A stretch of 64,000 nucleotides of DNA, from NCBI GenBank assembly GCA_028284385.1, contig JANQRT010000045.1, forward strand, positions 62,001 to 126,000, in the 5' to 3' direction. This document shows, piece after piece, positions 1-14,575 of this stretch (position 1 is the stretch's first letter; every line of letters starts with the position of its first letter). The notes below the pieces were generated by a model. That model was not told where the DNA came from. It saw only the letters and a program-made list of their open reading frames with translations, and made no database searches. Made by a program: the position numbers and the translations under genes. Source of the stretch: Opitutaceae bacterium. Lineage in GTDB: Bacteria; Verrucomicrobiota; Verrucomicrobiia; Opitutales; Opitutaceae.

Positions 1-246
1 ATTGCGAAAACCTGCCCGATCCTCCTCACTCATGGAGGAAACTTCCTGATCAGCGATCTCGATCGAGCCACTCGATGGCGTATCCAACGTTCCCAGCAAG
101 TTGAGCAACGTGGTCTTGCCGGATCCCGAAGGGCCTGTGATGGCAACTGAATCTCCCGCCTGAACCTCAAGATCGAGATCATTCAATACCACGATATCCT
201 CACCAGGTCCTTGATATACCTTTCTTAAATTTTGTATTTTGAGCAT
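1..246 (-). CDS. ABC transporter ATP-binding subunit, LolD/MacB type (partial)
   Basis: The frame starts at an ATG at 246 and leaves the window after 82 codons. A Walker A motif, GPSGSGKTT, sits at residues 38-46. The following LLNLLGTLDTPSSG has the spacing typical of LolD/MacB-type ATPases, which power lipoprotein release or MacB-like export at the inner membrane. Walker B and the LSGGQ signature lie beyond the edge, so the subfamily is not certain. It is on the same strand as the long operon to its right but separated from it by an inverted repeat pair, so it could be the last operon gene or an independent unit. Confidence 0.85.
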   Translation of the reverse strand, partial: MLKIQNLRKVYQGPGEDIVVLNDLDLEVQAGDSVAITGPSGSGKTTLLNLLGTLDTPSSGSIEIADQEVSSMSEEDRAGFRN

Positions 247-263
247 TGTGAGAGTGGGAATTT

Positions 264-394
264 TTAACCACGGAGGGCGCAGAGATTACAGAGGTCTTAT
301 GATCAGGTTCTTGTATGTTGTTAAACAATGGAGCAGAGAATTTCCATCTTAAGCGTTTTCGGATTTTAGCGTCTCCGTGCCCTCTGTGGTTAAT
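264..394. repeat. Inverted pair of a dispersed repeat (ACCACRGAGG family), no cargo
   Basis: The left copy at 264-294 reads TTAACCACGGAGGGCGCAGA and continues. The inverted right copy ends at 394 and reads TTAACCACAGAGGGCACGGA on the minus strand. The arms match over about 22 bases with three or four mismatches, and about 76 bases of unremarkable DNA lie between them. Related single copies occur near 33935, 39781 and 54095. The pair sits exactly between two co-directional genes, with the stop of the upstream ligase only two bases from the repeat. Confidence 0.75.
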
Positions 395-395
395 A

Positions 396-1646
396 TCATT
401 GTAGCATTTTCCATCTCTTGGCCTTCATCTCGAATTGGGGCAAGACACCTGGCTCCGAAATCTCTACCGGTATTCTCAGACTGAATACTTCCCTCAGTTT
501 TTTGTGTAGCGCGTCTTCAACTGACTTGGGATTGGACTGGGAAAGGCATTCGATCGACAAGGAAATTTCTGTCATCGAATCCTTGCTCCCGACAAGCACC
601 TGGTACTCGCCTATCCCATCGACAGAGCGAACTACCGCATCCACAGCGCTCGGATAGAGATTCACGCCTCGAACGATCACCATGTCGTCAGCTCTTCCGA
701 GAATGCCACCATCCAAAGCGAAAGCCTGTGGATCTTCGCCAGGCAGTGCCTTCCCTTTGACCAAATCGCCCGTTCGGTAGCGAAGCAATGGGCTGCCTGC
801 TCGTCCTAAAGTGGTCAATACAAGCTCTCCCACTTCCCCTAATTCAAGGCTAAGCCCCGTTTCAGGATCGACGATTTCCGCGAAATAGGCCTCGTGCAAA
901 ATCCTCAATAGACTCGGGTCCTCTCCATCCGAATAGGTCACGGGACCGACCTCGGTCATACCATGATGATCGAATAGCTTGGCTCCCCATCCCGACTCAA
1001 TACGTTCTCGTACCTCAGGAAGACTTCCGCCCGGTTCTCCTCCTACGATTAGTCGCTCAACTGAATTGGAACGCAAATCGACTCCTTCTCTTTTGGCTAC
1101 GTTAATCAGGTGGAGAGCGTAAGTTGGCGTACAACACAGCCAATCCGGAGCATAGCGATCAATCATCTTCAATCGCTCCAAGCTGGTCTGCCCTCCAAGA
1201 GGCACGCAACGCAAACCCAGCTGGGATCCCGCTTCGAAGGCAGCCCAAAAACCCAAAAAAGGTCCGAAAGAAAAGGGGAAAGCGGCGCATTCGCCAGCTT
1301 GAGCTCCGCATTCTCGCCAAACGGATTTCCAGTTATCAAGCACCCATTGCCAGCCTTCGGGCGTGTCTAGCCAAGGAAGCGGGCGACCTGAAGTGCCGCT
1401 AGTCTGATGGAGACGCGTGTATTTAGAAACCGGATAGGTAAGGTTTGTGCCATAAGGAGGATTGCTGGCATGGTCTTCAGCCAGTTCCTGCTTTGTAGTA
1501 AACGGCATTCGTGCAGAAAAATCCTCCAGGCTCTCGAATTCCTTTCCCTCCGCCTTAACCAGCTTACTAGCGTAAAAAGCGTTATCATTGGCAATCTCGG
1601 CGACGAGATCATTCAGTAAAGCGAGCTGGGTATCAGCAAGAGACAT
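396..1646 (-). CDS. PaaK-like acyl-CoA ligase (AMP-forming)
   Basis: The 416-residue protein belongs to the phenylacetate-CoA ligase branch of the ANL adenylating enzymes. The phosphate-binding loop TSGTSG is at residues 82-87. A GMTEVGP motif follows near the middle, and YRTGD with a C-terminal GRADDM hinge is visible. Enzymes of this branch activate aryl or acyl acids with ATP and join them to CoA in the cytoplasm. The length is close to the usual 430. It is the last clear member of the minus-strand operon and lies next to a thioesterase that could hydrolyse its product. The substrate cannot be read from sequence; an aromatic acid is my inference from the neighbouring chorismate-lyase-like and halogenase-like genes. 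Confidence 0.85.
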   Translation of the reverse strand: MSLADTQLALLNDLVAEIANDNAFYASKLVKAEGKEFESLEDFSARMPFTTKQELAEDHASNPPYGTNLTYPVSKYTRLHQTSGTSGRPLPWLDTPEGWQWVLDNWKSVWRECGAQAGECAAFPFSFGPFLGFWAAFEAGSQLGLRCVPLGGQTSLERLKMIDRYAPDWLCCTPTYALHLINVAKREGVDLRSNSVERLIVGGEPGGSLPEVRERIESGWGAKLFDHHGMTEVGPVTYSDGEDPSLLRILHEAYFAEIVDPETGLSLELGEVGELVLTTLGRAGSPLLRYRTGDLVKGKALPGEDPQAFALDGGILGRADDMVIVRGVNLYPSAVDAVVRSVDGIGEYQVLVGSKDSMTEISLSIECLSQSNPKSVEDALHKKLREVFSLRIPVEISEPGVLPQFEMKAKRWKMLQ

Positions 1647-1660
1647 TCTTGGATTGACAG

Positions 1661-1690
1661 GTAGCGGCTAGCGTCTCGCTAGCCGTCACG
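1661..1690. repeat. Short palindromic repeat (GGCTAGCG-TCT-CGCTAGCC family)
   Basis: CGGCTAGCG (1665-1673) and its reverse complement CGCTAGCCG (1677-1685) flank a TCT loop, giving a perfect 9-bp stem preceded by GTAG. A two-hairpin version of the same element occurs at 48627-48690. It lies between the stop of the membrane-protein gene and the start of the ligase, as REP-type elements usually do. Confidence 0.8.
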
Positions 1691-2207
1691 ACGACTGATC
1701 TGAAACCTGAGCGACGGGTGCAGGAGGGGCCTTCGGAGCGGGAGCGGGCTTGTACAAGGCAACCAGGCATCCACCAACAGCCGCCAACACCACGCCAATC
1801 ATAAAGGGAATCGGGATACCGGAAAAACCGCCCCTAGGAGGATGCATACTCATGGAAACAAAGGCATTCACGATAGGCGCGCCCGCAAAGACAATCGACA
1901 TGACCGCGCTTGGCGTTCCCTTGGCCCCGAAAGCCATGATAATGAAAAAGGCTCCCAAGGCTCCGGCCAGTCCAGCCACAAAGGACCAGCTCCACCCCTT
2001 GACCGGGAAATGAAAACTCGCTCCTTGCACTTTGAGCAGTATCAAAGGAACCACTACCGCTATGACTAGGTAGGCGATTCCTACGAAAAGAAACGCCTTA
2101 TAACGTCCCGCCTCAGGATCCTTCATCCCGATTGATCCAGAATGGAGAGCGACGCCATAAACGCCGAAGAAGAATGCGGTCATGAGTGAGTAAACAAGCC
2201 AGTTCAT
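1686..2207 (-). CDS. Small EamA/DMT-like membrane protein
   Basis: This 173-residue protein has about five hydrophobic segments and a Pro/Ala-rich hydrophilic tail (PAPAPKAPPAP). The N-terminal WLVYSLMTAFFFGVYGV and the later pattern with GxPxxVxSIVF resemble one half of an EamA-type drug/metabolite transporter. Half-size members usually act as dimers in the inner membrane and move small metabolites. It sits between the thioesterase and the PaaK-like ligase genes, 12 bases after the thioesterase, so it may export or import the pathway compound. The assignment to EamA rests on general pattern only. Confidence 0.6.
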   Translation of the reverse strand: MNWLVYSLMTAFFFGVYGVALHSGSIGMKDPEAGRYKAFLFVGIAYLVIAVVVPLILLKVQGASFHFPVKGWSWSFVAGLAGALGAFFIIMAFGAKGTPSAVMSIVFAGAPIVNAFVSMSMHPPRGGFSGIPIPFMIGVVLAAVGGCLVALYKPAPAPKAPPAPVAQVSDQSS

Positions 2208-2219
2208 AAAGTGTATTCG

Positions 2220-2675
2220 CTATTCGCTTTTAGAATTTTCGACCGCAGTTTCCAAGGCATCTTTTAAAGCTGGCGGAATTTCGATCGATTCTATTTTTCC
2301 ATCGTTTTTGGACAATCGAACGCAAGCCGTAGTCATTCGCCCGGTGGCCACACGCTCTTCGCCCAAATAGAATTCGTGAATGTATCGAACCGAGCGTCGG
2401 CGTATTTCCTCGATGGACAAACGAATGGTGACAGTATCATCGAACCTCACCGGTTTAAAAAATTCGCAAGAAGCCTTCACTCGAGGCCAACCAATATCCT
2501 CCCCGTCAAGCTTCTCGTGCACCTTATGGCCAATCGAGCGGAAAAAGGCGTGCTCAGTCGTCTCCATAAATTTATAGAAATTGGAAAAGTGCATAATCCC
2601 AGCCATATCCGTATCCGCAAATTCGACACGTTTTTGGCATTCGAAAACGCATGGACTATTGGTTGATTGAGTCAT
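2220..2675 (-). CDS. Acyl-CoA thioesterase, 4-hydroxybenzoyl-CoA thioesterase/YbgC type
   Basis: The 151-residue hot-dog-fold protein carries the family signature near its N-terminus: VEFADTDMAGIMHFSNFYKF, with the catalytic aspartate in the DTDMAGIMHF segment. Enzymes of this type hydrolyse aryl- or short acyl-CoA esters in the cytoplasm. Its ATG overlaps the stop of the glycosyltransferase gene (ATGA at 2672-2675), implying translational coupling. Together with the two ligase-like genes of the operon it points to a CoA-thioester intermediate. The exact acyl group is unknown. Confidence 0.88.
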   Translation of the reverse strand: MTQSTNSPCVFECQKRVEFADTDMAGIMHFSNFYKFMETTEHAFFRSIGHKVHEKLDGEDIGWPRVKASCEFFKPVRFDDTVTIRLSIEEIRRRSVRYIHEFYLGEERVATGRMTTACVRLSKNDGKIESIEIPPALKDALETAVENSKSE

Positions 2676-3979
2676 GATCTTGCGGGAGATGGCGCAAGAG
2701 AATCAACCACGCTTAGAAATTGGTTTCGCATAGCTTCGAGACTGTAGAACTTCTCCACGCCTAGTCGACCCCGTTCTCCCATTTCTTTGAGTTTATCGGG
2801 TTTGCGCAAGAGACCACTCCAAGCTTCAGCCAAGGAAGACGGATCTTCGATTCCGACGCAGATTCCTCCCGAGGTTTTCTCCGTAATCTCGGGGAAAGAA
2901 GAGGTTTCCGGCTGAACGACAGGTACACCCGCGGCCATGGCTTCGAGAACGTACAGTCCAAAGGCCTCCTCGTAGACTACCGGAACCGAAAAGAGCGAAA
3001 GACTCTTAAGAAAATCGATCTTCTCGCTACGTGGCAAATTGGGCACCCAATCCACAAAGGAGGAAAGGTTATTGTCCTCCAGCTTTTGCTTCAAGGAAGC
3101 GACAAGCGGTTCATCGCCAGCAGTCATGGCTCCTCCGATTCTCAAACGACAATCCTCGTGACCGATTTTCTCCCTAAGATGAATAAACGCGTCCACCAGG
3201 AGTGGCAGTCCTTTTACTTCACACATGCGAGCCAGGTATCCGATAGTCGGCGTATCCGGGACTTCTCTTCGGGCTTCGAAACCGGCTAGACTGATTCCGT
3301 TTGGCTGAACGACGATCGATCCTTCAGGCATGTCGAGACGATTTTCCATGAGTCGAGCATAGGACTGGCTAGGGGCTAGCAAGAGGTCCGCGCCTCGACA
3401 TCGTTCTGCCATGAGCTTCCAACAACGATCCTTGTACTCGCTAGGCAGGCTGTCTAAAAATGTATCCTCCCCCTGGAAACAGCAGATCACAGGAACATTC
3501 CATTGCTTTTTAACGTTCTCGGCAAATCCCGCCATCAGGGAAGTCGATAGGCAGATAACATCAGGAACTCCATGATCATTGATCCATGAATACAGCTTGC
3601 TCAGCTCCTTTTTAAACTGGGCCGTATCCAGCTTCAGCATCTCGTAGGTCATGGCTCCATGCTCGCGAGCAGACGTCATGTGACTTCGCTTAGCGACGGA
3701 GCGCAAGAGATCCGGCTTGTTCAATAGGCTATCCATCCATTGCGGCGTATGGCGAAACAGCGAGAATTTCTGCTGCAAGTAGATGTTGATCCCTCCAAAG
3801 AAAATCGGGACATCGTCCGCCAAGCCGTCTGAAGATTCATCCAACATTAGCGGAAGGTACATGGGCAGCAGCTCAGCATCATGACCCGCCTCTATCAACG
3901 CATTGGCAAGGGCATTGTCGCGCATGCAGGCGCCACAATAGTAGCTGCCGGTACCAGGCGTTAGGAAGGTGATCTTCAT
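2672..3979 (-). CDS. Glycosyltransferase family 4
   Basis: The 435-residue GT-B protein opens with the glycine-rich donor-side loop found in GT4 enzymes (ITFLTPGTGSYYCGACMRDN). Its C-terminal half has the nucleotide-sugar binding signature VVYEEAFGLYVLEAMAAGVPVV with the E-x7-E motif. GT4 enzymes transfer a sugar from a nucleotide donor to a lipid, sugar or small-molecule acceptor in the cytoplasm. The gene follows a repeat-flanked island and overlaps the thioesterase start, so it is co-transcribed with the enzymatic genes rather than with a polysaccharide locus. A role in glycosylating the pathway product is an inference. Confidence 0.88.
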   Translation of the reverse strand: MKITFLTPGTGSYYCGACMRDNALANALIEAGHDAELLPMYLPLMLDESSDGLADDVPIFFGGINIYLQQKFSLFRHTPQWMDSLLNKPDLLRSVAKRSHMTSAREHGAMTYEMLKLDTAQFKKELSKLYSWINDHGVPDVICLSTSLMAGFAENVKKQWNVPVICCFQGEDTFLDSLPSEYKDRCWKLMAERCRGADLLLAPSQSYARLMENRLDMPEGSIVVQPNGISLAGFEARREVPDTPTIGYLARMCEVKGLPLLVDAFIHLREKIGHEDCRLRIGGAMTAGDEPLVASLKQKLEDNNLSSFVDWVPNLPRSEKIDFLKSLSLFSVPVVYEEAFGLYVLEAMAAGVPVVQPETSSFPEITEKTSGGICVGIEDPSSLAEAWSGLLRKPDKLKEMGERGRLGVEKFYSLEAMRNQFLSVVDSLAPSPARS

Positions 3980-3986
3980 GGGTTAG

Positions 3987-4460
3987 TTTTAACCGCGAAT
4001 GAATGCGAATAGATGCGAATTTCTAGTTAAGATAAACTAAATACTTTCAACAGATTCGGATGCAAAATGAGTTGCTAACTGATTAATGACCGAAAAAACC
4101 AAAGATCCTCCATGCCTCGAAATTGTGTCCACTATTTTTTCCCAAACCTTCTCATCCCTAATTTTACCCAAAAACTCATGTCCATTCCAAGTGAGTTCAA
4201 AAGGTATAACATAAATAATACGGTCACTAGTACTTGATTTTACCGGCTCACATCTCAATAGACCAGCATCATGTAAGAGGACTAGATGATACTTTATAGT
4301 CGACTCATCATATCCTTCAATTGGAGGAACTTTGACATGTTTAGGAGATTCTTTTTCTTCAAAGAATAAAAGAAGTTTCCGAATAAGCTCAAAATCTCTC
4401 CTCATTACATATTATCAATATATGTCATTTGTGTTCATTCGCATTCATTCGCGGTTCTAA
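3987..4460. mobile_element. Inverted-repeat-flanked island carrying a DUF2513 gene
   Basis: A dispersed repeat, TTTTAACCGCGAATGAATGC and continuing, occupies 3987-4020. An inverted copy lies at 4433-4460 (AGAACCGCGAATGAATGCGA on the minus strand). About 22 bases match almost perfectly. Between the copies is one AT-rich gene on the minus strand. The whole unit splits two operon genes that are otherwise tightly packed. No transposase, terminal target duplication or recombinase is visible, so mobility is inferred from layout only. Confidence 0.55.
4037..4405 (-). CDS. DUF2513-like winged-helix protein
   Basis: The 122-residue protein starts MRRDFELIRKLLLFFEEK and continues with a segment, IEGYDESTIKYHLVLLHDAGL, that reads as a winged helix-turn-helix. 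The ending ELTWNGHEFLGKIRDEKVWE is typical of DUF2513. Members are found in phages, plasmids and accessory regions, and their function is not established. The gene is clearly more AT-rich than the neighbouring operon genes and is enclosed by inverted repeats, so it is probably a late arrival that does not belong to the operon's pathway. Confidence 0.75.
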   Translation of the reverse strand: MRRDFELIRKLLLFFEEKESPKHVKVPPIEGYDESTIKYHLVLLHDAGLLRCEPVKSSTSDRIIYVIPFELTWNGHEFLGKIRDEKVWEKIVDTISRHGGSLVFSVINQLATHFASESVESI

Positions 4461-4472
4461 AAACAATCTTGT

Positions 4473-5738
4473 CTAGGCCGACGAAGCGGCTTCCGTTCGA
4501 CCGTAAGACAGCGGTTCCGGAATGTCGGCGAATTCGCCGACCGCTTCCATAAGGCGAGTGTAATCCTTGTCTACGAGGTCTCCAATCAGACAATCGGTAA
4601 GCTTTCCTCTCAAATCTCCATACTTTCGCACTAGGTCGCCGAAACTGAAATTGTCGTCGTAAAACGCATACACCAGCTTTCTCATGTTTTCAATCGCCAG
4701 GCAGAGTCGCTCTCCGTATTCATTAAACGATGACGAAGAGAAATCGTTTTGAGCGAAAGCTTGGTCGATCGCGTCGGCAGCCATCTCTCCGCTTTTCAAA
4801 GCCAGGAAGACGCCAGACGAGAAAACTGGATCCAGAAAAGCGAAGGCGTCACCGATGAGAACCACCCCATCCGCCGCGCAACGCTCAGAGCGGTAGGAAT
4901 ATTCCCCGGTCACCCAGTATTCGCCAAATTGTTCGCCTTCCGAGAGGTGATCCTTAATCCAAAGATTGTTTTCTATCTCCCTTTCGAAAATCTCTCTCGG
5001 ATCCCGCGTACCACTGTACAGATAATCTCTTTCAGCAACGATACCCGAGCTGACGATATCATCCTTCATTGGAATATTCCAGAACCAGCCTTTGCCATCG
5101 AGATAGGCTACCGTCGTCGCTCCTTCGTCGAGTCCAGGATCCCGTTTCGCTCCTTTATACAGGGTCCATATAGCGATCTTATTGAGCTTCGGATCCCGCT
5201 TTCTCGTTCTGCTTTTGACCTGGTAGAGAGCATCTCGACCCGAGGCGTCCACCGTGATCGGCGCCCTCAATTCGTAGTCGATGCCATCCGATCCGGCGGC
5301 CTTGACGCCAACCACCTTTCCTTGCTCGTAAATGAAATCCTTAACCTGAGTCTCTTCGCGAACTTCCGCTCCCTTTGCTCGAGCATTGTCCAAAAGGAGC
5401 TCGTCGAATTCAGAACGCTTGACCTGCCAAGTGGTAGCTGCCGGGTGATCAAAGTGCTGGAAGAAATAAAACGGAGCCGAGATGTTACCATCCCTGGTAA
5501 CGAACTGAACACTGTGCTTTTTGGTATACCCTCGTCGATTGAGTTCATCCACCACCCCGAGGCGTTCGAAAGTGAAGTAGCAAAACGGCATCAAAGACTC
5601 TCCCACGTGATAGCGGGGAAATTTCTCTTTCTCCAAAACAACGACCTTTCGACCTTTTTCGGCAAGCAGGGCGCCGGCAGTAGAGCCCGATGGGCCCCCA
5701 CCAATAACAATGACATCGTATTCTAAATTCTTGGACAT
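4473..5738 (-). CDS. FAD-dependent oxidoreductase of the flavin halogenase/monooxygenase family
   Basis: The 421-residue protein has the FAD-binding motif GGGPSG at residues 13-18 and HVGES at 44-48. WFWNIP at 218-223 fits the WxWxIP signature described for flavin-dependent halogenases, and GDAFAFLDPVFSSGVFLAL appears in the second FAD motif. Known relatives include phenolic and CmlS-like halogenases, but non-halogenating oxidoreductases share much of the pattern. It lies 22 bases downstream of the possible chorismate-lyase-like gene. That pairing would fit modification of a hydroxybenzoate-like compound. No flavin reductase is next to it. Family membership is strong; halogenation itself is uncertain. 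Confidence 0.8.
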   Translation of the reverse strand: MSKNLEYDVIVIGGGPSGSTAGALLAEKGRKVVVLEKEKFPRYHVGESLMPFCYFTFERLGVVDELNRRGYTKKHSVQFVTRDGNISAPFYFFQHFDHPAATTWQVKRSEFDELLLDNARAKGAEVREETQVKDFIYEQGKVVGVKAAGSDGIDYELRAPITVDASGRDALYQVKSRTRKRDPKLNKIAIWTLYKGAKRDPGLDEGATTVAYLDGKGWFWNIPMKDDIVSSGIVAERDYLYSGTRDPREIFEREIENNLWIKDHLSEGEQFGEYWVTGEYSYRSERCAADGVVLIGDAFAFLDPVFSSGVFLALKSGEMAADAIDQAFAQNDFSSSSFNEYGERLCLAIENMRKLVYAFYDDNFSFGDLVRKYGDLRGKLTDCLIGDLVDKDYTRLMEAVGEFADIPEPLSYGRTEAASSA

Positions 5739-5760
5739 TTTAATTTGCTAGTTGTGAAGG

Positions 5761-6297
5761 CTATACCGGCGGCAATATCTCGATGATCGATGCCAGCGTC
5801 TCATCCTTCGCGTTAAGAAGTTGATTATAGCGTCCAAAAAGCTCCTGCGTTTCCCCGCATCGAAACCGCCCTTGGCAGATCCGTGGCGCCAGCAACGAAA
5901 AGAACCCTTTCGGACGACTAAAATATGGATGCTCCATTTGATTCATTATACCGCCCAAAGGTTCGTTTCCCGAGACGATAGCCTGCTTTTCGGGCAAAGG
6001 AAAATGATCCAAAACTATGTCGATAGCCCCGTACTCCACCGGCTCTCCTGTACTCCGCTTGTTCAAAATGACTTCACGCACATAATCTCCCTCCTCATGG
6101 CTAACCTGCAAAACTTCCAGTCCAATGGGCGATTGGTGGTATTTTTCCAGCGTACTGGTCATATCGTTTTCGTGTACCAGCAAATCTCGGAATGGCTGAG
6201 GCATTGACGATCCCTCCAGCCAGCGAAAATCGGGAGGACTGATCCCTCTTTGATCAAGGATTTCCTGAAGATATTCGGAAAACTGATACGATGGCAT
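5761..6297 (-). CDS. Uncharacterised protein, possibly chorismate-lyase (UbiC)-like
   Basis: The 178-residue cytoplasmic protein has no signal peptide. The segment NDMTSTLEKYHQSPIGLEVL, followed by VREVILN, GEPVEYGAIDI and NEPLGGIM, follows the order of motifs seen in the UbiC/DUF98 chorismate-lyase fold (a loop of the DGSMTxxLE kind, a central R-x-V-x-L strand and a final PLG). UbiC turns chorismate into 4-hydroxybenzoate plus pyruvate. I could not confirm the catalytic glutamate, and the C-terminal 50 residues are unlike UbiC. It lies between the radical SAM and FAD-oxidoreductase genes in the operon. A profile search would decide this. Confidence 0.5.
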   Translation of the reverse strand: MPSYQFSEYLQEILDQRGISPPDFRWLEGSSMPQPFRDLLVHENDMTSTLEKYHQSPIGLEVLQVSHEEGDYVREVILNKRSTGEPVEYGAIDIVLDHFPLPEKQAIVSGNEPLGGIMNQMEHPYFSRPKGFFSLLAPRICQGRFRCGETQELFGRYNQLLNAKDETLASIIEILPPV

Positions 6298-6308
6298 GGC
6301 TTCGGCGA

Positions 6309-7640
6309 TCAGACAATTCGATCCGTAACGTGCTGAGGAAGGAAGAACTTGAAAAGGAGATTGTCGACGCAGAGCAATCCGCGACGTGTCAGTCGAATGC
6401 CAGTCTCGTCGTATTCAAGAAGTTCTTCCTCTGCCAATTCCTTCAGTTGTTCAGCATAGCGTGCAGCCAAGTCTATTGAAAACTTGGTGGCGAAGTATGA
6501 GAAGGAAACCTTGCCAAGCTTCATCTGCAAAAGGAATTCACGGATCATGCGCTCCTCGTCGTTTATTCTCAAAGCGCGATGAATAGGGAGACCTCCATTG
6601 TCGACAGTTTCGATGTACTTATAGATGTCATTAATATTCTGGTAGTGCACTCCCGCTATGTGGGAGATCGACGCGACCCCAAGGCCCAGCAAATCAGCCC
6701 CACTCCACAATTCGTCCCGATACACGAATTTCGTTTTTTCAGGATCAAGCACTGCGGTGTAACCGCTACCTATGTGATAACCTTCTTTCTCAAGCGCTTC
6801 GAAGGCCTCTCTCACCCAACGCCGCTTCACTTCCCAATCAGCCACCGGAGCAGTCAGTGATCCGCTTTCCTTCATCTCCTTGTAAATCGTAGTATTATAA
6901 GGAATCTCCATCTGGTAGATGGTCACGCTGTCCGGTCGAAGCTTCAGCGTTTCCTCTATGTTTCGCTGCCAGTTCTCATCGGTCTCCTCAACCATACCGG
7001 CAATGAGATCGATATTGATCTGATCGAAATTCGCCGCTTTGGCTGCTTCGTAAGCCTTGTACACTTCAGGAGCTCGGTGGGCGCGACCGTTTATGTCGAG
7101 TATCCTATCGTCGAAATTCTCTACTCCCAAGCTGAGCCGGGTTACTCCAACGTCTTTGATAACTTGAATCTTGCGCGGATTGAGAGTGCCAGGTTCTCCC
7201 TCAAAGGCGATTTCATCAGCTTCATCCCACGGCAGGATGGCCTTCATACGATCGGTTAAATCGGTGAGTTGGGAAGCCGAAAGATAAGAGGGTGTCCCCC
7301 CTCCAAAGTAGACGAAGCGTGGCTTGCGACCAGCGATGCGGGGCTGCCTGGCAAAGTGTTCTAGCTCGTTGATGGTCGAATCGAGATAGCCTTTGATTTC
7401 ATTGGCATTCTTGTCGGTGTAGACACGAAAATAACAGAAGTGGCAACGCTTGCGGCAAAACGGAATATGATGATAGACCCCGAGCGACGCTCCATCGTCT
7501 TGAGGTTCCAAAAAGGCGTCATCAACGTCCTTCTTATTCTCCGGTTTCCAGAATGAGAAAGGCGGGTAGTTCGAAATGAAATAATTGCCCGCTTCCGTGG
7601 GCTTTTTCTTTGGCTCTTCGGCCTCTGTAGTTGAGCTCAT
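6309..7640 (-). CDS. Radical SAM protein of the HemN/HemW family
   Basis: The 443-residue protein has the 4Fe-4S motif with cysteines at 62, 66 and 69 (CRKRCHFC). It also has the SAM-binding GGGTPS near residue 115 and a C-terminal HemN-type domain ending LTRRGLLCVDNLLFKFFLP. HemN makes protoporphyrinogen, HemW is a heme chaperone, and many relatives in biosynthetic loci do other chemistry. It starts with about 20 charged residues and is about 60 residues longer than HemW at the N-terminus. Its place inside a substrate-specific operon, 11 bases from its downstream neighbour, argues against a housekeeping heme role. Confidence 0.85.
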   Translation of the reverse strand: MSSTTEAEEPKKKPTEAGNYFISNYPPFSFWKPENKKDVDDAFLEPQDDGASLGVYHHIPFCRKRCHFCYFRVYTDKNANEIKGYLDSTINELEHFARQPRIAGRKPRFVYFGGGTPSYLSASQLTDLTDRMKAILPWDEADEIAFEGEPGTLNPRKIQVIKDVGVTRLSLGVENFDDRILDINGRAHRAPEVYKAYEAAKAANFDQINIDLIAGMVEETDENWQRNIEETLKLRPDSVTIYQMEIPYNTTIYKEMKESGSLTAPVADWEVKRRWVREAFEALEKEGYHIGSGYTAVLDPEKTKFVYRDELWSGADLLGLGVASISHIAGVHYQNINDIYKYIETVDNGGLPIHRALRINDEERMIREFLLQMKLGKVSFSYFATKFSIDLAARYAEQLKELAEEELLEYDETGIRLTRRGLLCVDNLLFKFFLPQHVTDRIV

Positions 7641-7644
7641 AAAT

Positions 7645-8835
7645 TTAGGTGTTGTTTCGTGGGCCTGATTCTAAAGCGAAAAGCGTGCCTCCTTGGCTTC
7701 CAATAAGCAACTTGCCTGAAGCGAATATCGGGGAGGCAATCAAGGAGCCTCCCAGTTCGATCTTCCAGAGCTCCTGGCCATCGGTTTGGTTTACCGCATA
7801 GAGCCAACCATCAGTCGAACCGAAAACGACCGCATCGCTAAAGGCCAGAGGAGAACTGTCAACCCGACCCTGGGTAGTATACGCCCATACTCCTTCGCCG
7901 GTTTCGCGATCGATGGCATGGAGTCGTTTGTCGCGCGAACCAATGAAAACGAATTTCTCATTTACGGCTGGTGAACTGAAAAACGGAAAGGAGCGGTCAA
8001 TGTAAGTCCACAGTTCGCCATAGTCCTGGTAATCGAAAGCGAAAACCTGATTCGCATAGTTACCTCCGTAACCAATTCCCTGGTACACCGCCACAGAAGA
8101 GGGAATGTAGGCTTCCGTTTCGTATCGCTCTACGGCCTCGCCGTTTGAAGCATTCAGTACATGCAAATTCGCGTCGCAACCTCCGAAGATAATATGCTCA
8201 TCGTCAATAAGGGCTGGTGTTCCATTTATAAAGTTATCGGTCTGGTAGCTCCAGATTTCAGACCCATCCTCCATGCTTAGGCAACGGAGCATGCCATCAT
8301 TGCCAGCTACCAAAAGTCTGGTTTCCTCACCAGAAGGGTCACGAACGATATTGGCGCCTGCTGTGATTTTATCGTCAAGTTCGATGCTCCAATTCTCCTG
8401 TCCTGTCTCTCGGTCGAGGGAGAAGAACTTGCCGTTATTCGATCCAAAGAAAATCGAGTTTCTGAATACCGTTGGTTCTGACTCGATCACATCGCCACTT
8501 TCGAATCTCCAGATTTCGGCGCCGTCCTTCAGATTCAATGCAAAGAGCTGGCCCATATCGTTTCCAATGTAAGCCACTCCCTGATAAACGGCTGCATCAA
8601 CGGAAATGGGAAAACCCGCGTCGAAAGTCCATGAGATCCGAGGAGCCTGGATCACTACGTCTTCGATCGACCCGCTCAGTTGAGGATTCCCTCGAGTGAT
8701 TGGCCAATCGCGAGTAATATAACCTGGCTTGGAAGGATTTTCCACTGTATCCGAAATCTCACCACTCTTCGAGCTACACCCGACTAACCAAATCGAAATG
8801 GTCATCCATACCAGCGCGACGAAGCGAGAGTCCAT
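7645..8835 (-). CDS. PQQ-like beta-propeller lipoprotein
   Basis: From the ATG at 8835 the protein begins MDSRFVALVWMTISIWLVGCSS, a lipoprotein signal with LVGC as lipobox. It then has repeated blades with DGAEIWRF, TGQENWSIE, DGSEIWSYQ and TGEGVWAYT, the W-containing PQQ_2/BamB-type repeats. It is about 396 residues, enough for seven or eight blades. An in-frame ATG at 8889 overlaps the upstream stop but would put 18 hydrophilic residues before the signal, so I prefer 8835. The protein should sit on a membrane facing the periplasm. No catalytic residues are evident, so a scaffold, sensor or binding role is as likely as redox chemistry. Confidence 0.82.
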   Translation of the reverse strand: MDSRFVALVWMTISIWLVGCSSKSGEISDTVENPSKPGYITRDWPITRGNPQLSGSIEDVVIQAPRISWTFDAGFPISVDAAVYQGVAYIGNDMGQLFALNLKDGAEIWRFESGDVIESEPTVFRNSIFFGSNNGKFFSLDRETGQENWSIELDDKITAGANIVRDPSGEETRLLVAGNDGMLRCLSMEDGSEIWSYQTDNFINGTPALIDDEHIIFGGCDANLHVLNASNGEAVERYETEAYIPSSVAVYQGIGYGGNYANQVFAFDYQDYGELWTYIDRSFPFFSSPAVNEKFVFIGSRDKRLHAIDRETGEGVWAYTTQGRVDSSPLAFSDAVVFGSTDGWLYAVNQTDGQELWKIELGGSLIASPIFASGKLLIGSQGGTLFALESGPRNNT

Positions 8836-8885
8836 GATCTCGAGATCTTGGCAAGATAGACTCCCCCACCTGTGCTTCTGTTTCA

Positions 8886-10040
8886 TCAAGCGCTTTTAGC
8901 CATGCGCTGCAAAACATCAGCGTATAGCGATTTGAAATCCTCTTCACTGGCAGGCCGGGGATTGAATTTCCCAGTCCATTGTTGCGACGCGTCGAATGCC
9001 AAGTCGTCAATATTTCCGTTTTCGATTCCAAATGAAGGCAGACTCGCTAGATTGGCTTTAACAACAAGACCATCAAGCCAATCGATTATATCCAAATATT
9101 CACTACTATTCGATGGAATCAGCTTTTGCAAATCCTCGTAGATGGTATTGGCAGCAGGATCGTCTTGATTAAATCCAACCACCTGCGGCAGCATTAAGGC
9201 CACCGCGTGTCCATGGGTTACATCGAATCGAGCGGTCAAGGGATTGGCCATAGCATGAGCCGCTCCCAACATGCTATTCTCGATAGCCAGACCAGCCATA
9301 GCCGCGCCCAATTGCATATTGCTCCTGTCCTCAAGAGATGGATTCCCTTCGATAACCTTCTCTATCGATCCAGAAAGCAGTCGAAAGGCTTGCCGAGAAT
9401 GAATCTGCGAAATGGGATTGCGCGGCAGACAAACGGCTGACTCCAAGGCATGCGCCAGAGCGTCCAAACCGGTTAGCACGGCAACGCGAACAGGCTGAGA
9501 GGTCGTCAATTCCGGATCGAGCAAGGCGATTTTAGCCAAGGCCTTGCCATCGCCGCAGGCCATTTTCACATGAGTCTTATCGTCGCTAACCAGCGCGTAC
9601 GACTGGCATTCGCTACCAGTGCCAGAGGTGGTTGGAACGGCAACAAAGGGTAGCATTGGCTTCGAAGCCTTTCCGTAGCCATGGTAGTCTTTCATCTCTC
9701 CACCATTGGTCAGCAGGAAGTTGCAGCCCTTGGCTGTATCCATACTACTACCACCACCAAAGCCGATAATCGAATCAACCTCGGCTTGCCTAGCGAAATC
9801 ACGACAGGCCTCAATCGAAGAGCTGGTCGGGTTCTCTTGGGCCTTGCTGTAGATGGCCGTGTGGATTCCGGCGCTCTCAAGAGCATCAAGGGCTCGCTGA
9901 ACGTGACCAGTCGCCATCACCCCCTCGTCGGTGACCAGCAAAGGGCAAGCCACTCCGAGTTCTTCAATGAATTCAGGCAGCTTGGCTAGCATTCCCGCAC
10001 CGAAGGCGATACGAGGACTTGGTCTAGTAATGAAATTCAC
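8886..10040 (-). CDS. Iron-containing alcohol dehydrogenase
   Basis: The 384-residue group III alcohol dehydrogenase has the NAD-binding GGGSSMD at residues 95-101. It also has the metal-binding region ENSMLGAAHAMANPLTARFDVTHGHAVALMLP with the conserved histidines. These enzymes interconvert alcohols and aldehydes in the cytoplasm with NAD(P). It starts with GTG two bases after the stop of the LuxC-like gene, so the two are coupled. Together they could carry an acyl group through aldehyde to alcohol, or the reverse. The substrate is unknown. Confidence 0.92.
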   Translation of the reverse strand: MNFITRPSPRIAFGAGMLAKLPEFIEELGVACPLLVTDEGVMATGHVQRALDALESAGIHTAIYSKAQENPTSSSIEACRDFARQAEVDSIIGFGGGSSMDTAKGCNFLLTNGGEMKDYHGYGKASKPMLPFVAVPTTSGTGSECQSYALVSDDKTHVKMACGDGKALAKIALLDPELTTSQPVRVAVLTGLDALAHALESAVCLPRNPISQIHSRQAFRLLSGSIEKVIEGNPSLEDRSNMQLGAAMAGLAIENSMLGAAHAMANPLTARFDVTHGHAVALMLPQVVGFNQDDPAANTIYEDLQKLIPSNSSEYLDIIDWLDGLVVKANLASLPSFGIENGNIDDLAFDASQQWTGKFNPRPASEEDFKSLYADVLQRMAKSA

Positions 10041-10042
10041 GG

Positions 10043-11494
10043 CTAGGCAGTTATTTGCGACTTCGACTGAATAGCTCGACGATGATAAAGAAACTCGAAG
10101 AGATTTCCTTCATGCGGCTGCTCCCATTGTACCCAATTCGTGGGGACAATTCCCAAATTGAGGCGATCGATATGAGGACTGCCCATAAGATCTCTTTTCC
10201 AAGATTCGCTCTCGGTGATTGCCGACACCACCAACGTAGGACCAATTCGCCCCAGCATCTCCGATTCTGGAATCTGGACGACGCTGGCGAAGGGAAACAT
10301 GTATTCAGTATTCGCCAACGGATGGTCCGGATCGGAGCAGGCGATAAGCGTTGGACAAAGAAAAGTCTGTCCGAATTTCTCTACGAGGCGTGGACCGTTT
10401 CGATACTTCGCCGTCAAATCAACGGCGCCCGGCGTTTTCAGTTCATCATCTATAGCATCGTTAATCGCCTTCGCGAAATCGGGATTTGCAAAACCGCACA
10501 AGAGAGCGTCATCGTCATCGCGAGCTCTTGGTTCGATGGCAGCCAGGCGTTTTGCCATGGCATTGGATATTTCGTCGAAGCGAGAGGGCAGCAGCACAGA
10601 TGAAGCGTTGATACAGCTACGTCCCCCATTTGCGGATACAGATTCGACAAGGACATCCAGAAATTCTTCCCATTGATCGACTTGATCTTCGCCTACGAGA
10701 ACCTTACTGCGACCAGAACCGTGTACCTGAATATTCGGATACTTGGCGTATTTCTTGACCGTTGCATCACTGCCGAAAACGATCCCTCTCCCACAGCCAA
10801 GCACGATCGCATCTCCACCCTCATGAGTGGTGGGATAGAAACTAAAAGCTTCTTTTGGAAATCCAGCGGCAATCATGGCCTGAATAATACGGTAGGGTGT
10901 GAGCGGATCTTCTCGTCCCGGCTTCAGGAAAACAGGCGTCTTCATCACGAGAGCAGGCAACCAAAGCGAATTCACCCCTGGAGAGTTGCTAGGAAGCGTC
11001 ACACCCAGGCTATTCGCCGTGGAGAAATAATTAATGTCAATGTCTCCCAAGCGGGCGCAACCACTGTCGAACAAGGAAGGCGGAAGCCCTCGAGTCAGAC
11101 CTGAAATCACCGCTCGCATGTTTTTCAGAGCCGCCGCCACCTTAAACATGTTTCCTCGGCAAAGGGAGTGAGGCAGTCCCGTAAGTCGCGAAAGCGTGGA
11201 TACGTAGTCGGAAACAGTTTGAACTTCCCCATCCATGCCAAAGGGCAATTCGCCATCAAGATAGATCTCAGAAGCCTTTTCCGCATACTCAAGCAGCTTT
11301 TCCGTGGGCACGGCGAAAAGCGCATTTCGAGCCTTGTCTATCGAGAGCAGATCGCGCCGGATCAGTCCAGCATTAGCAACGCTCACCTCCAAGTCATTGC
11401 CGGACGAAAGCACCTTGCCTAGATCGGTCGTATCCAAACTCTTGTAGACTTCACCAAAGCGAAGTACTGGTATATGTGTTGCTCCTTTTTCCAT
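10043..11494 (-). CDS. LuxC-like acyl-CoA/acyl-protein reductase (aldehyde dehydrogenase fold)
   Basis: The protein of about 483 residues has the aldehyde dehydrogenase superfamily core, with the nucleophile cysteine in NGGRSCINASS near residue 295. The front part, LPSNSPGVNSLWLPALVMKTPVFLKPGREDPLTPYR, is the LuxC-type cofactor loop. LuxC reduces activated acyl groups to aldehydes. The next gene upstream (beyond a repeat island) is a LuxE-like adenylating enzyme and the next gene downstream is an alcohol dehydrogenase, so an acid to aldehyde to alcohol route is plausible. ATG at 11494 was chosen over the adjacent GTG at 11497. Confidence 0.82.
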   Translation of the reverse strand: MEKGATHIPVLRFGEVYKSLDTTDLGKVLSSGNDLEVSVANAGLIRRDLLSIDKARNALFAVPTEKLLEYAEKASEIYLDGELPFGMDGEVQTVSDYVSTLSRLTGLPHSLCRGNMFKVAAALKNMRAVISGLTRGLPPSLFDSGCARLGDIDINYFSTANSLGVTLPSNSPGVNSLWLPALVMKTPVFLKPGREDPLTPYRIIQAMIAAGFPKEAFSFYPTTHEGGDAIVLGCGRGIVFGSDATVKKYAKYPNIQVHGSGRSKVLVGEDQVDQWEEFLDVLVESVSANGGRSCINASSVLLPSRFDEISNAMAKRLAAIEPRARDDDDALLCGFANPDFAKAINDAIDDELKTPGAVDLTAKYRNGPRLVEKFGQTFLCPTLIACSDPDHPLANTEYMFPFASVVQIPESEMLGRIGPTLVVSAITESESWKRDLMGSPHIDRLNLGIVPTNWVQWEQPHEGNLFEFLYHRRAIQSKSQITA

Positions 11495-11513
11495 CACCTA
11501 TATGTTTTTGATA

Positions 11514-11960
11514 AACAACGAAACACGCTAAACAAACGAAAGATTATCTAATTAATTTAAAAGCCTCTCGTGTTCGACTTTTGGGAAATGTCCGAAATTG
11601 ACTAGCAAACCCAATTTATTGTCTGTCGATTTCAAATAATTAATGACTTGGGCTCTATGCTCATCCGTCACCGCTTTGACTGCCTTAAGCTCGACTATTA
11701 TATTATCGAAGCAAAGAAAGTCTGGCTCGTAGTATTGCTCCAACAAATCTCCTTTGTAAAATAAACTTAGCCTGGGTTTTTCCTGAAATGGTACTTTCTG
11801 CGATTCAAATTCTTTTCTTAAGCATTCCTGATAGACCGATTCTAAAAACCCGTTGCCCTTATCCTTATATACTTCAAAACAACAGCCGATTATTTTATAG
11901 CTTTCTTCCTTAAAGAGTAGATTCTGATTCATTTTCGTGTATTTAGTGTGTTTCGTTGTT
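11514..11960. mobile_element. Inverted-repeat-flanked island carrying a GxxExxY gene
   Basis: The left arm (11514-11540) begins AACAACGAAACACGCTAAAC. The inverted right arm (11935-11960) reads AACAACGAAACACACTAAAT on the minus strand. The first 19 bases agree at all but one position and the similarity continues for about 26 bases. The arms enclose a single AT-rich gene and break the run between the LuxE-like and LuxC-like genes. The right arm is ten bases from the upstream stop and the left arm about twenty bases from the next start. No transposase is present. Confidence 0.6.
11552..11932 (-). CDS. GxxExxY protein (PDDEXK_3 nuclease-like)
   Basis: The 126-residue protein shows the motif that names this family, GNGFLESVYQ, and then a PD-(D/E)xK-type core: EPDFLCFDNIIVELKAVKAV, with D, E and K in register, and HRAQVINYLK. 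It also ends in the family's LGLLVNFG. The fold is that of restriction-type nucleases, but no biochemical role is established for the family to my knowledge. It is AT-rich compared with its neighbours and lies in a pair of inverted repeats inside an operon, which suggests it is cargo, or agent, of a repeat-based mobile unit. Confidence 0.92.
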   Translation of the reverse strand: MNQNLLFKEESYKIIGCCFEVYKDKGNGFLESVYQECLRKEFESQKVPFQEKPRLSLFYKGDLLEQYYEPDFLCFDNIIVELKAVKAVTDEHRAQVINYLKSTDNKLGLLVNFGHFPKVEHERLLN

Positions 11961-11969
11961 ACAATAAAA

Positions 11970-13055
11970 CTAATACACGCCTTCTATGACATTTTTCTTC
12001 TCAGACTGGAAGGGACGTACGTCTCCTACACCATCCCAGGGAAACTCTTCGCAAGGCTTTCTGCGAATCGCCTCGTCACGCTCGAGGAATCGCGGCATGA
12101 AAAACTCCTTGGTCATGGTGGTTAGCTCTACCCTACCGTATTCATCGTAATCCATCAATTCATCGGGGTTGTCCGGATTCACAATGCGAAGAACCGCTCT
12201 TGGCTGAGGAGCGTAGTAGGTAAGGCTGTAGTTGTCCTCTGGAGTCAATTTCCGACTTATGGCTAGCCCCATAAGTGTGTTTCCATAAGTCGGTGCGAAA
12301 TTCACCTGGTTTTCCAAAACCTCCTCGATCAGGAACCGTACGTACTGCGGCGTCATGGTAGTTCCGCCCACGAATACACCTTTGATGCCAGCCTTGGGCA
12401 AAGAAATACGCTCGGCAATGGCTTCCAGGATGGTGGGCGTGGTAAACATGCAGGCGATGTTTCGATTCTTCAGTATGGTGATGGCTTGGTCGACAACATG
12501 CTCCTTGTATTTGCGAGCCATGTCGAATTCGCCATCTCTGATGAGCCGCTTGACCCACCGAGGATCGAGATCGATGAAGTAGCACGCGCCTCCTCGGACA
12601 TTGGCCAGATGCTCGATAGCCAGCCTAAGCCTGCGCGGACCCGTAGGCCCGACCATGAGCCAGTTCGTTCCCTTCTGGAAAAAATCTTCGTCGTAATTAT
12701 CGCTAAACTCCGAGTAGTCTACCTTGTAGTCCTCCCAGCCAATACGCTGCTTGGGCATTCCCGTCGTCCCACCCGTTTCGAAAACGTTGTAAGGCTTACC
12801 TGCATACGCGTTAGGGATAAATCGAGCTGGATCGGTATCACGCAGAACCGCATCGTCGAACGCCTCGAATTTCAGCATATCATCGAATCCCTTGACTTCC
12901 TCCAACGGATTCCAGCCAGCATTCTTGGCCCAATCCAGCCAATAAGGACAACCTGTATCCGCAGAAAAATGCCAGGCGATCATCTCTCGCGTGTAGCGAT
13001 CTAGCTCTGCCCTAGCAGTTTCAATAGGATTCGTTTGAGTCACAGTCTGGGTCAT
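11970..13055 (-). CDS. LuxE/PaaK-like acyl-adenylating enzyme
   Basis: The 361-residue protein has a nucleotide loop FETGGTTGMPK (residues 92-102) of the ANL type and a GTTM...APTYGNTLMG region in the position of the adenylate-binding motif. It is shorter than PaaK (about 430 residues) and appears to lack most of the C-terminal lid domain, as LuxE-type acyl-protein synthetases do. It would activate a carboxylic acid as an acyl-adenylate and pass it to the LuxC-like reductase encoded next. It lies six bases from the symporter gene, suggesting the substrate may be imported. Confidence 0.75.
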   Translation of the reverse strand: MTQTVTQTNPIETARAELDRYTREMIAWHFSADTGCPYWLDWAKNAGWNPLEEVKGFDDMLKFEAFDDAVLRDTDPARFIPNAYAGKPYNVFETGGTTGMPKQRIGWEDYKVDYSEFSDNYDEDFFQKGTNWLMVGPTGPRRLRLAIEHLANVRGGACYFIDLDPRWVKRLIRDGEFDMARKYKEHVVDQAITILKNRNIACMFTTPTILEAIAERISLPKAGIKGVFVGGTTMTPQYVRFLIEEVLENQVNFAPTYGNTLMGLAISRKLTPEDNYSLTYYAPQPRAVLRIVNPDNPDELMDYDEYGRVELTTMTKEFFMPRFLERDEAIRRKPCEEFPWDGVGDVRPFQSEKKNVIEGVY

Positions 13056-13060
13056 CGAAG

Positions 13061-14575
13061 TTAGGATTTATTGGGAAAGAATTTAGCCATGGTCGTCTCC
13101 GACGGCGGCTTCGTCATAAGCGACACGATAATCATGCCCGCAGCGCAGGCCAAGAAAATGAATACAACCGGCATGGCTCCGCCGATTAGAAAAGATCGAT
13201 TGGCTCCGTAGCCCGAGGCTTGAAAAAGAAGAAACCAAGTTATGCCTCCCGCCAGCACAGCCGCGTAGGCTCCTGCTTTAGTCGCTCGCTTCCAGTAGAC
13301 CGCCGCGAAGACTAGCGGAAAGAGCCCGGCGAATCCGCTGAAACACCATATGCCTAGTGAGAAAACCTGCCTGGGCTCAACGAGAGTGAACAGATAAGTC
13401 ACCACTACAATGGTAGTCACAAAACCTCGCGCGATCCAAAGCATTTGCTTCTCCGAAAATCGATCTGCCCCAAAGGAATGAACCACGATATCTTTGGTAA
13501 ACATGGTTCCAACGGCAACAAACTGCGAGTCGAGCGAGGACATGATAGCAGCCAGGATACCGGCTGTAACGAGTCCTCCGATCACTGGCGAGGTCAGCTT
13601 GCCAACCATGATGCCTAAAACCGAATTGGGGTTTGTTCCCTCTGGAATAATGCGCGTCACGCCGTCAGGCATCACGGCACCGGTTGCCCAAAGACCAATC
13701 AGAATACATGGTATCCATGTAAGCATGATGGCAAGCGGATGAGCCACGAAAGTCAGACGAAAGGTTTTGGAGGACTTAGCCGTCAGGCAGTTTTGAAACA
13801 AATGCGGAAACATGCCGACCGACAAGGGGATCAGAAAATAGGAGAAGAACTGGAGCTCGCCTATATTTCCCGCTCTCACAGCCTTCTCGGCATCGGCCAT
13901 GGCTGAAGCGGCTTCCAGACCACCGAGCTTCGAAGAGATCATGTAGAATGCAAGAAATCCCATGATCATGAATACAATGGTCTGGAAAGTATTGGCCCAT
14001 GCCGCGCTACGAACGCCGCCGGCAAAAATATAGTAGAGAACGACTCCAGCGATGACCAAGGAAGTAAGCCAAGCGGGTACCGCTCCATTGGTTTCTGGAA
14101 AGAGCTCGGGGAAAGCTCCGCGCGTTACTCCCTGCATGGCCGATCCCGCGCCCATCAATCCAATTAGTAAATAGGGAATGAGCAGACCAATCAGAATGGG
14201 AAACAGAATATATCCGAATTTAGAGCTCTCAAAGCGGGCTCTGAAGAATTCGATTTGCGTATGGAATCCGTTCCGCTTGCCCAACGACCAAAGCGGCAGC
14301 CCAATGAGGAAAAAGCATGCCGTATGGATAAGAGCCGACCAGGAGGCGATTTTCCCGTAAGTTCCAATCCCAACCCGGTACGCCTCGCCAGTACTCCCGA
14401 TCAAAGCGAAGGCCGTCATGGTCGTACCGAAGATCGACATGAAAAGGACAACGGGACCAATCGAGCGGCTTGCTACGAAATAGTCGTTCGAGCTTCCGCG
14501 AAAGAAGCGGCTACTAACATAGCCTAACGCCAACAGTAGGCAGAGGTACCCGATAACGATATAGGTCTGGGTCAT
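13061..14575 (-). CDS. Sodium:solute symporter (SSS family)
   Basis: The 504-residue inner-membrane protein has about 13 hydrophobic helices and the SSS core motifs: SIFGTTMTAFALIGSTGEAY in the sodium-binding helix, FAGGVRSAAWANTFQT, and GILAAIMSSLDSQFVAVGTMFTKDI. It resembles the PanF/acetate-permease branch. Its start overlaps the stop of a DUF3311-type gene (ATGA), an arrangement also seen for YhdT-PanF, so the two likely work together. The imported substrate is probably an organic acid, given the acyl-activating enzymes encoded downstream. Confidence 0.92.
   Translation of the reverse strand: MTQTYIVIGYLCLLLALGYVSSRFFRGSSNDYFVASRSIGPVVLFMSIFGTTMTAFALIGSTGEAYRVGIGTYGKIASWSALIHTACFFLIGLPLWSLGKRNGFHTQIEFFRARFESSKFGYILFPILIGLLIPYLLIGLMGAGSAMQGVTRGAFPELFPETNGAVPAWLTSLVIAGVVLYYIFAGGVRSAAWANTFQTIVFMIMGFLAFYMISSKLGGLEAASAMADAEKAVRAGNIGELQFFSYFLIPLSVGMFPHLFQNCLTAKSSKTFRLTFVAHPLAIMLTWIPCILIGLWATGAVMPDGVTRIIPEGTNPNSVLGIMVGKLTSPVIGGLVTAGILAAIMSSLDSQFVAVGTMFTKDIVVHSFGADRFSEKQMLWIARGFVTTIVVVTYLFTLVEPRQVFSLGIWCFSGFAGLFPLVFAAVYWKRATKAGAYAAVLAGGITWFLLFQASGYGANRSFLIGGAMPVVFIFLACAAGMIIVSLMTKPPSETTMAKFFPNKS

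Follow-up and report, generated by a model that had tools for sequence, protein, structure and literature searches.

The IVS of the 23S rRNA gene of Coxiella burnetii is a 428-nt element with a 28-bp stem, which is cut by RNase III, and an ORF situated in the loop (PMC4990558). The elements described in this study resemble it in that they measure approximately 430 nt, end in inverted repeats that form a stem of about 28 bp, and carry a single small ORF within that loop. Both have short direct units near the arm (GACAGAT, three times, in Coxiella), and genes for S23, the rRNA-IVS protein, also occur in arm frames in the genome studied here. Unlike the IVS, these elements lie between protein genes and not in rRNA, and their cargo is DUF2513 or GxxExxY. 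By analogy, the DUF2513 element may be said to work like an IVS; because it is situated outside rRNA and contains no S23, it is not classed as one.

Other known systems share some of these features. MITEs with cargo also have inverted ends, many short gene-less copies and an occasional passenger gene, but the present elements have neither a target-site duplication nor a known parent transposase, and they occupy shared places with replaced contents. REPIN/RAYT systems likewise consist of paired inverted repeats that are intergenic and present in many copies; the arms here, however, are made of three direct units rather than of hairpin REPs, and the Y1 transposases have other repeats. Integron cassettes carry one small gene per unit, as here, and relatives of DUF2513 are found in cassette-like arrays, but at this locus no attC and no array were seen, and inverted arms are present on both sides.

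The features of the locus are listed in Table 1, with coordinates in the window (the whole stretch of 64,000 nt that was analysed). A preliminary description had reported inverted arms around one AT-rich gene encoding a winged helix, and this was borne out. The outer arms, AACCGCGAATGAATGCGAAT, at 3991–4010 and 4437–4456, are 100 % complementary (20/20) and 426 nt apart. Each full arm is approximately 30 nt long and comprises three units, the third of which differs between left (AGATGCGAAT) and right (GAACACAAAT); the internal period of the left arm is significant at p<0.001. The whole element measures 466 bp, and its loop holds the DUF2513 ORF alone, with approximately 16–20 nt left over per side. 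The predicted RNA hairpin has an MFE of -127.1 kcal/mol (z -3.9 against shuffles). No Rfam matches were obtained for window positions 1–14000, and a scan for promoters and terminators revealed no excess over shuffles. The element is not inside an rRNA helix; it is bordered by a glycosyltransferase gene and a halogenase-like one, and these neighbours are common to the congener G296 and to genomes G224 and G326.

Table 1. Coordinates, in the window, of the DUF2513 element, its neighbours and two sister elements
Feature	Position	Strand	Description
Gene-less sister element	266..391	.	CACGGAG-type arms; CACAGAT-type arms at the same place in G296
Flanking glycosyltransferase gene	2672..3979	-	Start codon 11 nt from left arm
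Predicted RNA hairpin	3985..4462	-	21-bp closing stem formed by the arms; ORF within the loop
Left arm	3991..4020	+	AAC plus three CGCGAAT-type units with a 10-nt period: AACCGCGAAT GAATGCGAAT AGATGCGAAT
DUF2513 ORF	4037..4405	-	Encodes 122 aa with a predicted winged helix; G+C 35.8 %
Right arm, inverted copy	4427..4456	-	AACCGCGAAT GAATGCGAAT GAACACAAAT; outer 20 nt complementary to left arm
Flanking FAD-dependent halogenase/reductase-like gene	4473..5738	-	Stop 16 nt from right arm
Sister element	11514..11960	-	GxxExxY (PDDEXK_3) gene at 11552–11932 between AACAACGAAA-type arms

The protein was identified as DUF2513 by its match to PF10711 (E 8.9e-28, 97 bits against a gathering score of 29.6), and it also matches phrog_585 (E 5.6e-27). 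An AlphaFold2 model (pLDDT 86) supports the prediction of a winged helix. The top Foldseek matches of that model were PadR-type regulators, with a probability of 0.99 but an E value of only 0.017, so the PadR likeness is taken as a fold-level lead only. A sequence search against solved structures returned nothing useful, and the PADLOC defence models gave no match for DUF2513 and weak ones for GxxExxY.

The G+C content of the DUF2513 gene is 35.8 %, as against 51–52 % in both neighbours and 50 % in the window. Within the phylum the gene is uncommon (present in 10 of 289 genomes), and its nearest relatives are found in Planctomycetota (69 % identity), Pseudomonas (63 %), Rhodocyclus (58 %), a genome of the same family (55 %) and Pirellulales (51 %); it occurs on plasmids and in phages too. 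Its low G+C content and distant relatives, some of them in integron-like arrays, plasmids and phages, support what would be a recent acquisition. In Pseudomonas sp. ZH-FAD (L033) and in the same-family genome (L036), DUF2513 stands alone in an integron-like cassette and has on its flanks repeated units of 71 nt and 130 nt, which are typical of integron arrays. The cassette reading rests on those repeated units, and at L032, L034, L041 and L043 largely on an attC-like appearance.

The arm belongs to a family that is dispersed in the genome, with 23 copies of the arm 20-mer at three or fewer mismatches. Most of the copies form gene-less inverted pairs of 60–250 bp between genes. The usual arm consists of three near-copies, each of 9–10 nt, of one unit; the unit types (CACGAAG, CACGGAT, CGCGGAG, CGCGAAT, CAGGAAA and others) agree within one element but vary from element to element, and internal periodicity was significant (p<0.01) in 22 of the 31 arms tested. 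Arms of the CGAAT type, as at the DUF2513 element, also flank a GxxExxY gene (C21:133422-133862) and form many gene-less pairs, so the type of arm is independent of the cargo. A search of the literature with the arm sequences returned only primer noise.

For such frames 1.54 Mb of the genome was scanned, of which 1.16 Mb (three contigs and the window) was unselected by local content and 0.38 Mb had mostly been picked for known elements. A gene-sized frame was defined as an inverted pair with a gap of 250–700 bp and a score of at least 17, and mirror repeats served as the control. Ten frames were found, and none in the mirror control, so the DUF2513 frame is not a product of chance; formation of the arms by chance was ruled out by this control together with the congener. 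Gene-sized frames are nearly confined to GxxExxY (six), S23 (one) and DUF2513; of the two others, one holds a Y1 transposase that has REPs of its own, and one is a gene-less cross-pair of nested arms.

Each of the seven GxxExxY genes of the genome lies in inverted arms, and no two of them share an arm sequence; one (L026) is weak by score. Class-wide, flanks were complementary at p<0.05 in 34 of 36 GxxExxY loci, and 24 of the 36 exceeded the 99 % point of the null; the loci outside this genome are the best match per genome and not a random sample. For the null, left and right flanks were taken from different loci; it is conservative, because it includes real arms. Three S23 genes (L055, L056 and L057), situated outside rRNA, are each framed by inverted arms of other types, and two more (L058 and L059) are unframed. 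The elements are 420–490 bp in length, with a stem of about 28 bp. The S23 gene at L055 has an internal stop, and its arms are made of GTGAAGG-like heptamers.

The preliminary description had held that both arms and cargo at the DUF2513 locus differ from those at 11514–11960. The cargo does differ, but the arms at 11514–11960 do not form a wholly separate family. They have the same build, AAC followed by repeated ACGAA-type units, with a period of 9 nt instead of 10 nt, and appear to be another unit type of the same architecture. It had also proposed a common mechanism that captures small genes in repeat pairs. The common layout held, for seven of seven GxxExxY genes, three S23 genes and DUF2513, with a gene-less pair in G296, but the arms are not specific to DUF2513. 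Nor did DUF2513 recur in such frames, which were present at none of nine other loci in the phylum and none of four further relatives (1 of 14 framed overall).

The same places were compared with G296, the one congener available (a 330-contig assembly). Between the same neighbours, G296 lacks DUF2513, of which a copy may lie elsewhere in that genome, and carries instead an arm pair of a different type that holds no gene, AACCGCGGATGAACGCGGATACACGCAAAT, the right arm of which has decayed to about 14 of 18 positions, as aligned by eye. Neither arms nor gene are present at this place in G224, from another genus, which has no arms at the sites read. Homology between the two congeners over -932 to 12056 (window coordinates) breaks at four elements, namely -522..-436, 274..378, 4020..4436 and 11481..11971. 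At all four G296 carries an arm pair, the arms and loop of which are wholly different. A fifth break, at 2212–2275, represents a GTAG-type REP in G296 and is outside the arm family.

Elsewhere, a GxxExxY gene at C21:133422 corresponds to a gene-less CACGAAG pair in G296; likewise, at C43:222047 and C43:224740 the place is shared and the contents are different. Both genomes carry GxxExxY in CACGGAG arms at C43:225059, and the site at C62:192469 is likewise conserved. At the S23 site C21:144602, G296 has a different small hairpin. Strong insertion preference, rather than descent, could account for some of the shared places. Precise empty sites, which the preliminary description had suggested looking for, were not found free of arms inside the genus, where G296 is occupied by other arms; only G224 lacks both arms and gene. 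Nor did the gene turn up without arms at a conserved place in relatives, as G296 and G224 lack it there.

At the 11514 site, the G296 assembly contains two alleles, on contigs C210 and C235, with flanks that are 99.4 % identical over 159 nt and 100 % over 88 nt. The C210 allele has ACGAAA-type arms around a GxxExxY gene that is a clear orthologue of the one at 11552–11932 in the window. The allele on the tail of C235 is a gene-less pair with CACGGAG arms. The difference extends about 15–30 nt past the arms, which may therefore not mark the precise limits of the replaced block, and it looks more like recombination than precise transposition. Both segments lie near contig ends, and the alleles could represent mixed strains or an assembly effect; a strain mixture in the G296 population would still mean a block difference with near-identical flanks.

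On balance, these results favour the view that DUF2513 is the loop content of an IVS-like intercistronic hairpin element whose contents are replaced at fixed sites. Such an element would consist of two inverted arms of approximately 30 nt, each of three 9–10 nt units, enclosing a short loop or, alternatively, a single ORF of about 120–140 codons. Many of these elements are present in the genome at places that the congener has as well. Arms and loop would be replaced together as a block, presumably by recombination at the fixed place, such that one place could be gene-less in one lineage and hold GxxExxY or DUF2513 in another. DUF2513 most likely arrived by replacing a gene-less pair after the species split, which would make the event a gain rather than a loss. 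At the RNA level the arms may pair and be cleaved, as in the 23S rRNA IVS of Coxiella, and GxxExxY, a PD-(D/E)XK protein, is a candidate driver of the exchange.

Mobility of a more conventional kind was also considered. The arms might be terminal inverted repeats of a MITE, moved in trans by a transposase, with arms and DUF2513 inserted as one unit. Their high copy number, mostly intergenic location and many short gene-less pairs are in keeping with this, but target-site duplications were absent in 21 elements (observed equalled expected), the place in G296 is occupied by other arms and not empty, and no transposase gene was seen with these arms, the Y1_Tnp genes searched carrying other repeats. 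A MITE is accordingly regarded as unlikely. Mobilization of the arms as REPs by a Y1 (TnpA-REP) transposase is disfavoured as highly improbable: inverted repeat pairs, gene-less copies and Y1_Tnp genes are all present in the genome, but the framed Y1_Tnp genes (L061 and L064, RAYT-like) have their own hairpin REPs, CGGAGGTTGGACTTTAGTCCGACC; GGTAGCGGCTAGCGTCC, and the present arms have no GTAG/CGTC tag and are repeats of direct units, not small palindromes. Equally disfavoured, with very little credence given to it, is an integron gene cassette lying by chance between two repeats. Close relatives of DUF2513 do reside in attC-like arrays (L033 and L036), but no attC-like direct repeat was seen by eye near the gene here. 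An R''/R' attC test was also negative at this locus (L024), although it was too strict to carry much weight, having missed L033 and matched exactly only L036 and L043.

A stationary origin deserves attention as well, in which the hairpins are conserved regulatory or processing signals of operons, the arms change together through slippage of units and correction by template switching, and DUF2513 entered one loop once. The places are indeed fixed in two species, complementarity is kept while the arm sequence changes, and the elements, which separate operon genes, lie near stop and start codons. Entire loops and genes differ as well, however, and the other genus (G224) has no hairpin at these places. 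Slow drift fits poorly, since two sharply different alleles with near-identical flanks occur in the one G296 assembly, and this origin is judged quite improbable. It is also doubtful whether there is a previously undescribed class of fixed-place hairpin cassettes, common throughout this bacterial class, in which arms and gene would be swapped together at the same intercistronic places. In that reading GxxExxY, with its PD-(D/E)XK nuclease fold, would be a swapper of a homing-like kind, the alternative contents being S23, DUF2513 or no gene.

If replacement at fixed sites is correct, the IVS type of element, a hairpin with one ORF in the loop, would be extended from rRNA to ordinary operons, and three orphan families (GxxExxY, S23 and DUF2513) would be tied to one type of carrier. 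The sites would also allow single-gene swapping to be watched within a population. The matter bears on why GxxExxY genes, which are common in this class, sit between short repeats; no paper describing such frames for GxxExxY or DUF2513 was found in the literature searched.

The spread of arms in the genome is uneven, with no two-unit AACC-type arms in C47:1-400000 (L101–L120), as against eight each in 340–360 kb of C43 and C72. At L205 and C32:286700-287850, several nested CACAGAAT/CACGGAG arms surround one GxxExxY gene, giving alternative inverted pairs.
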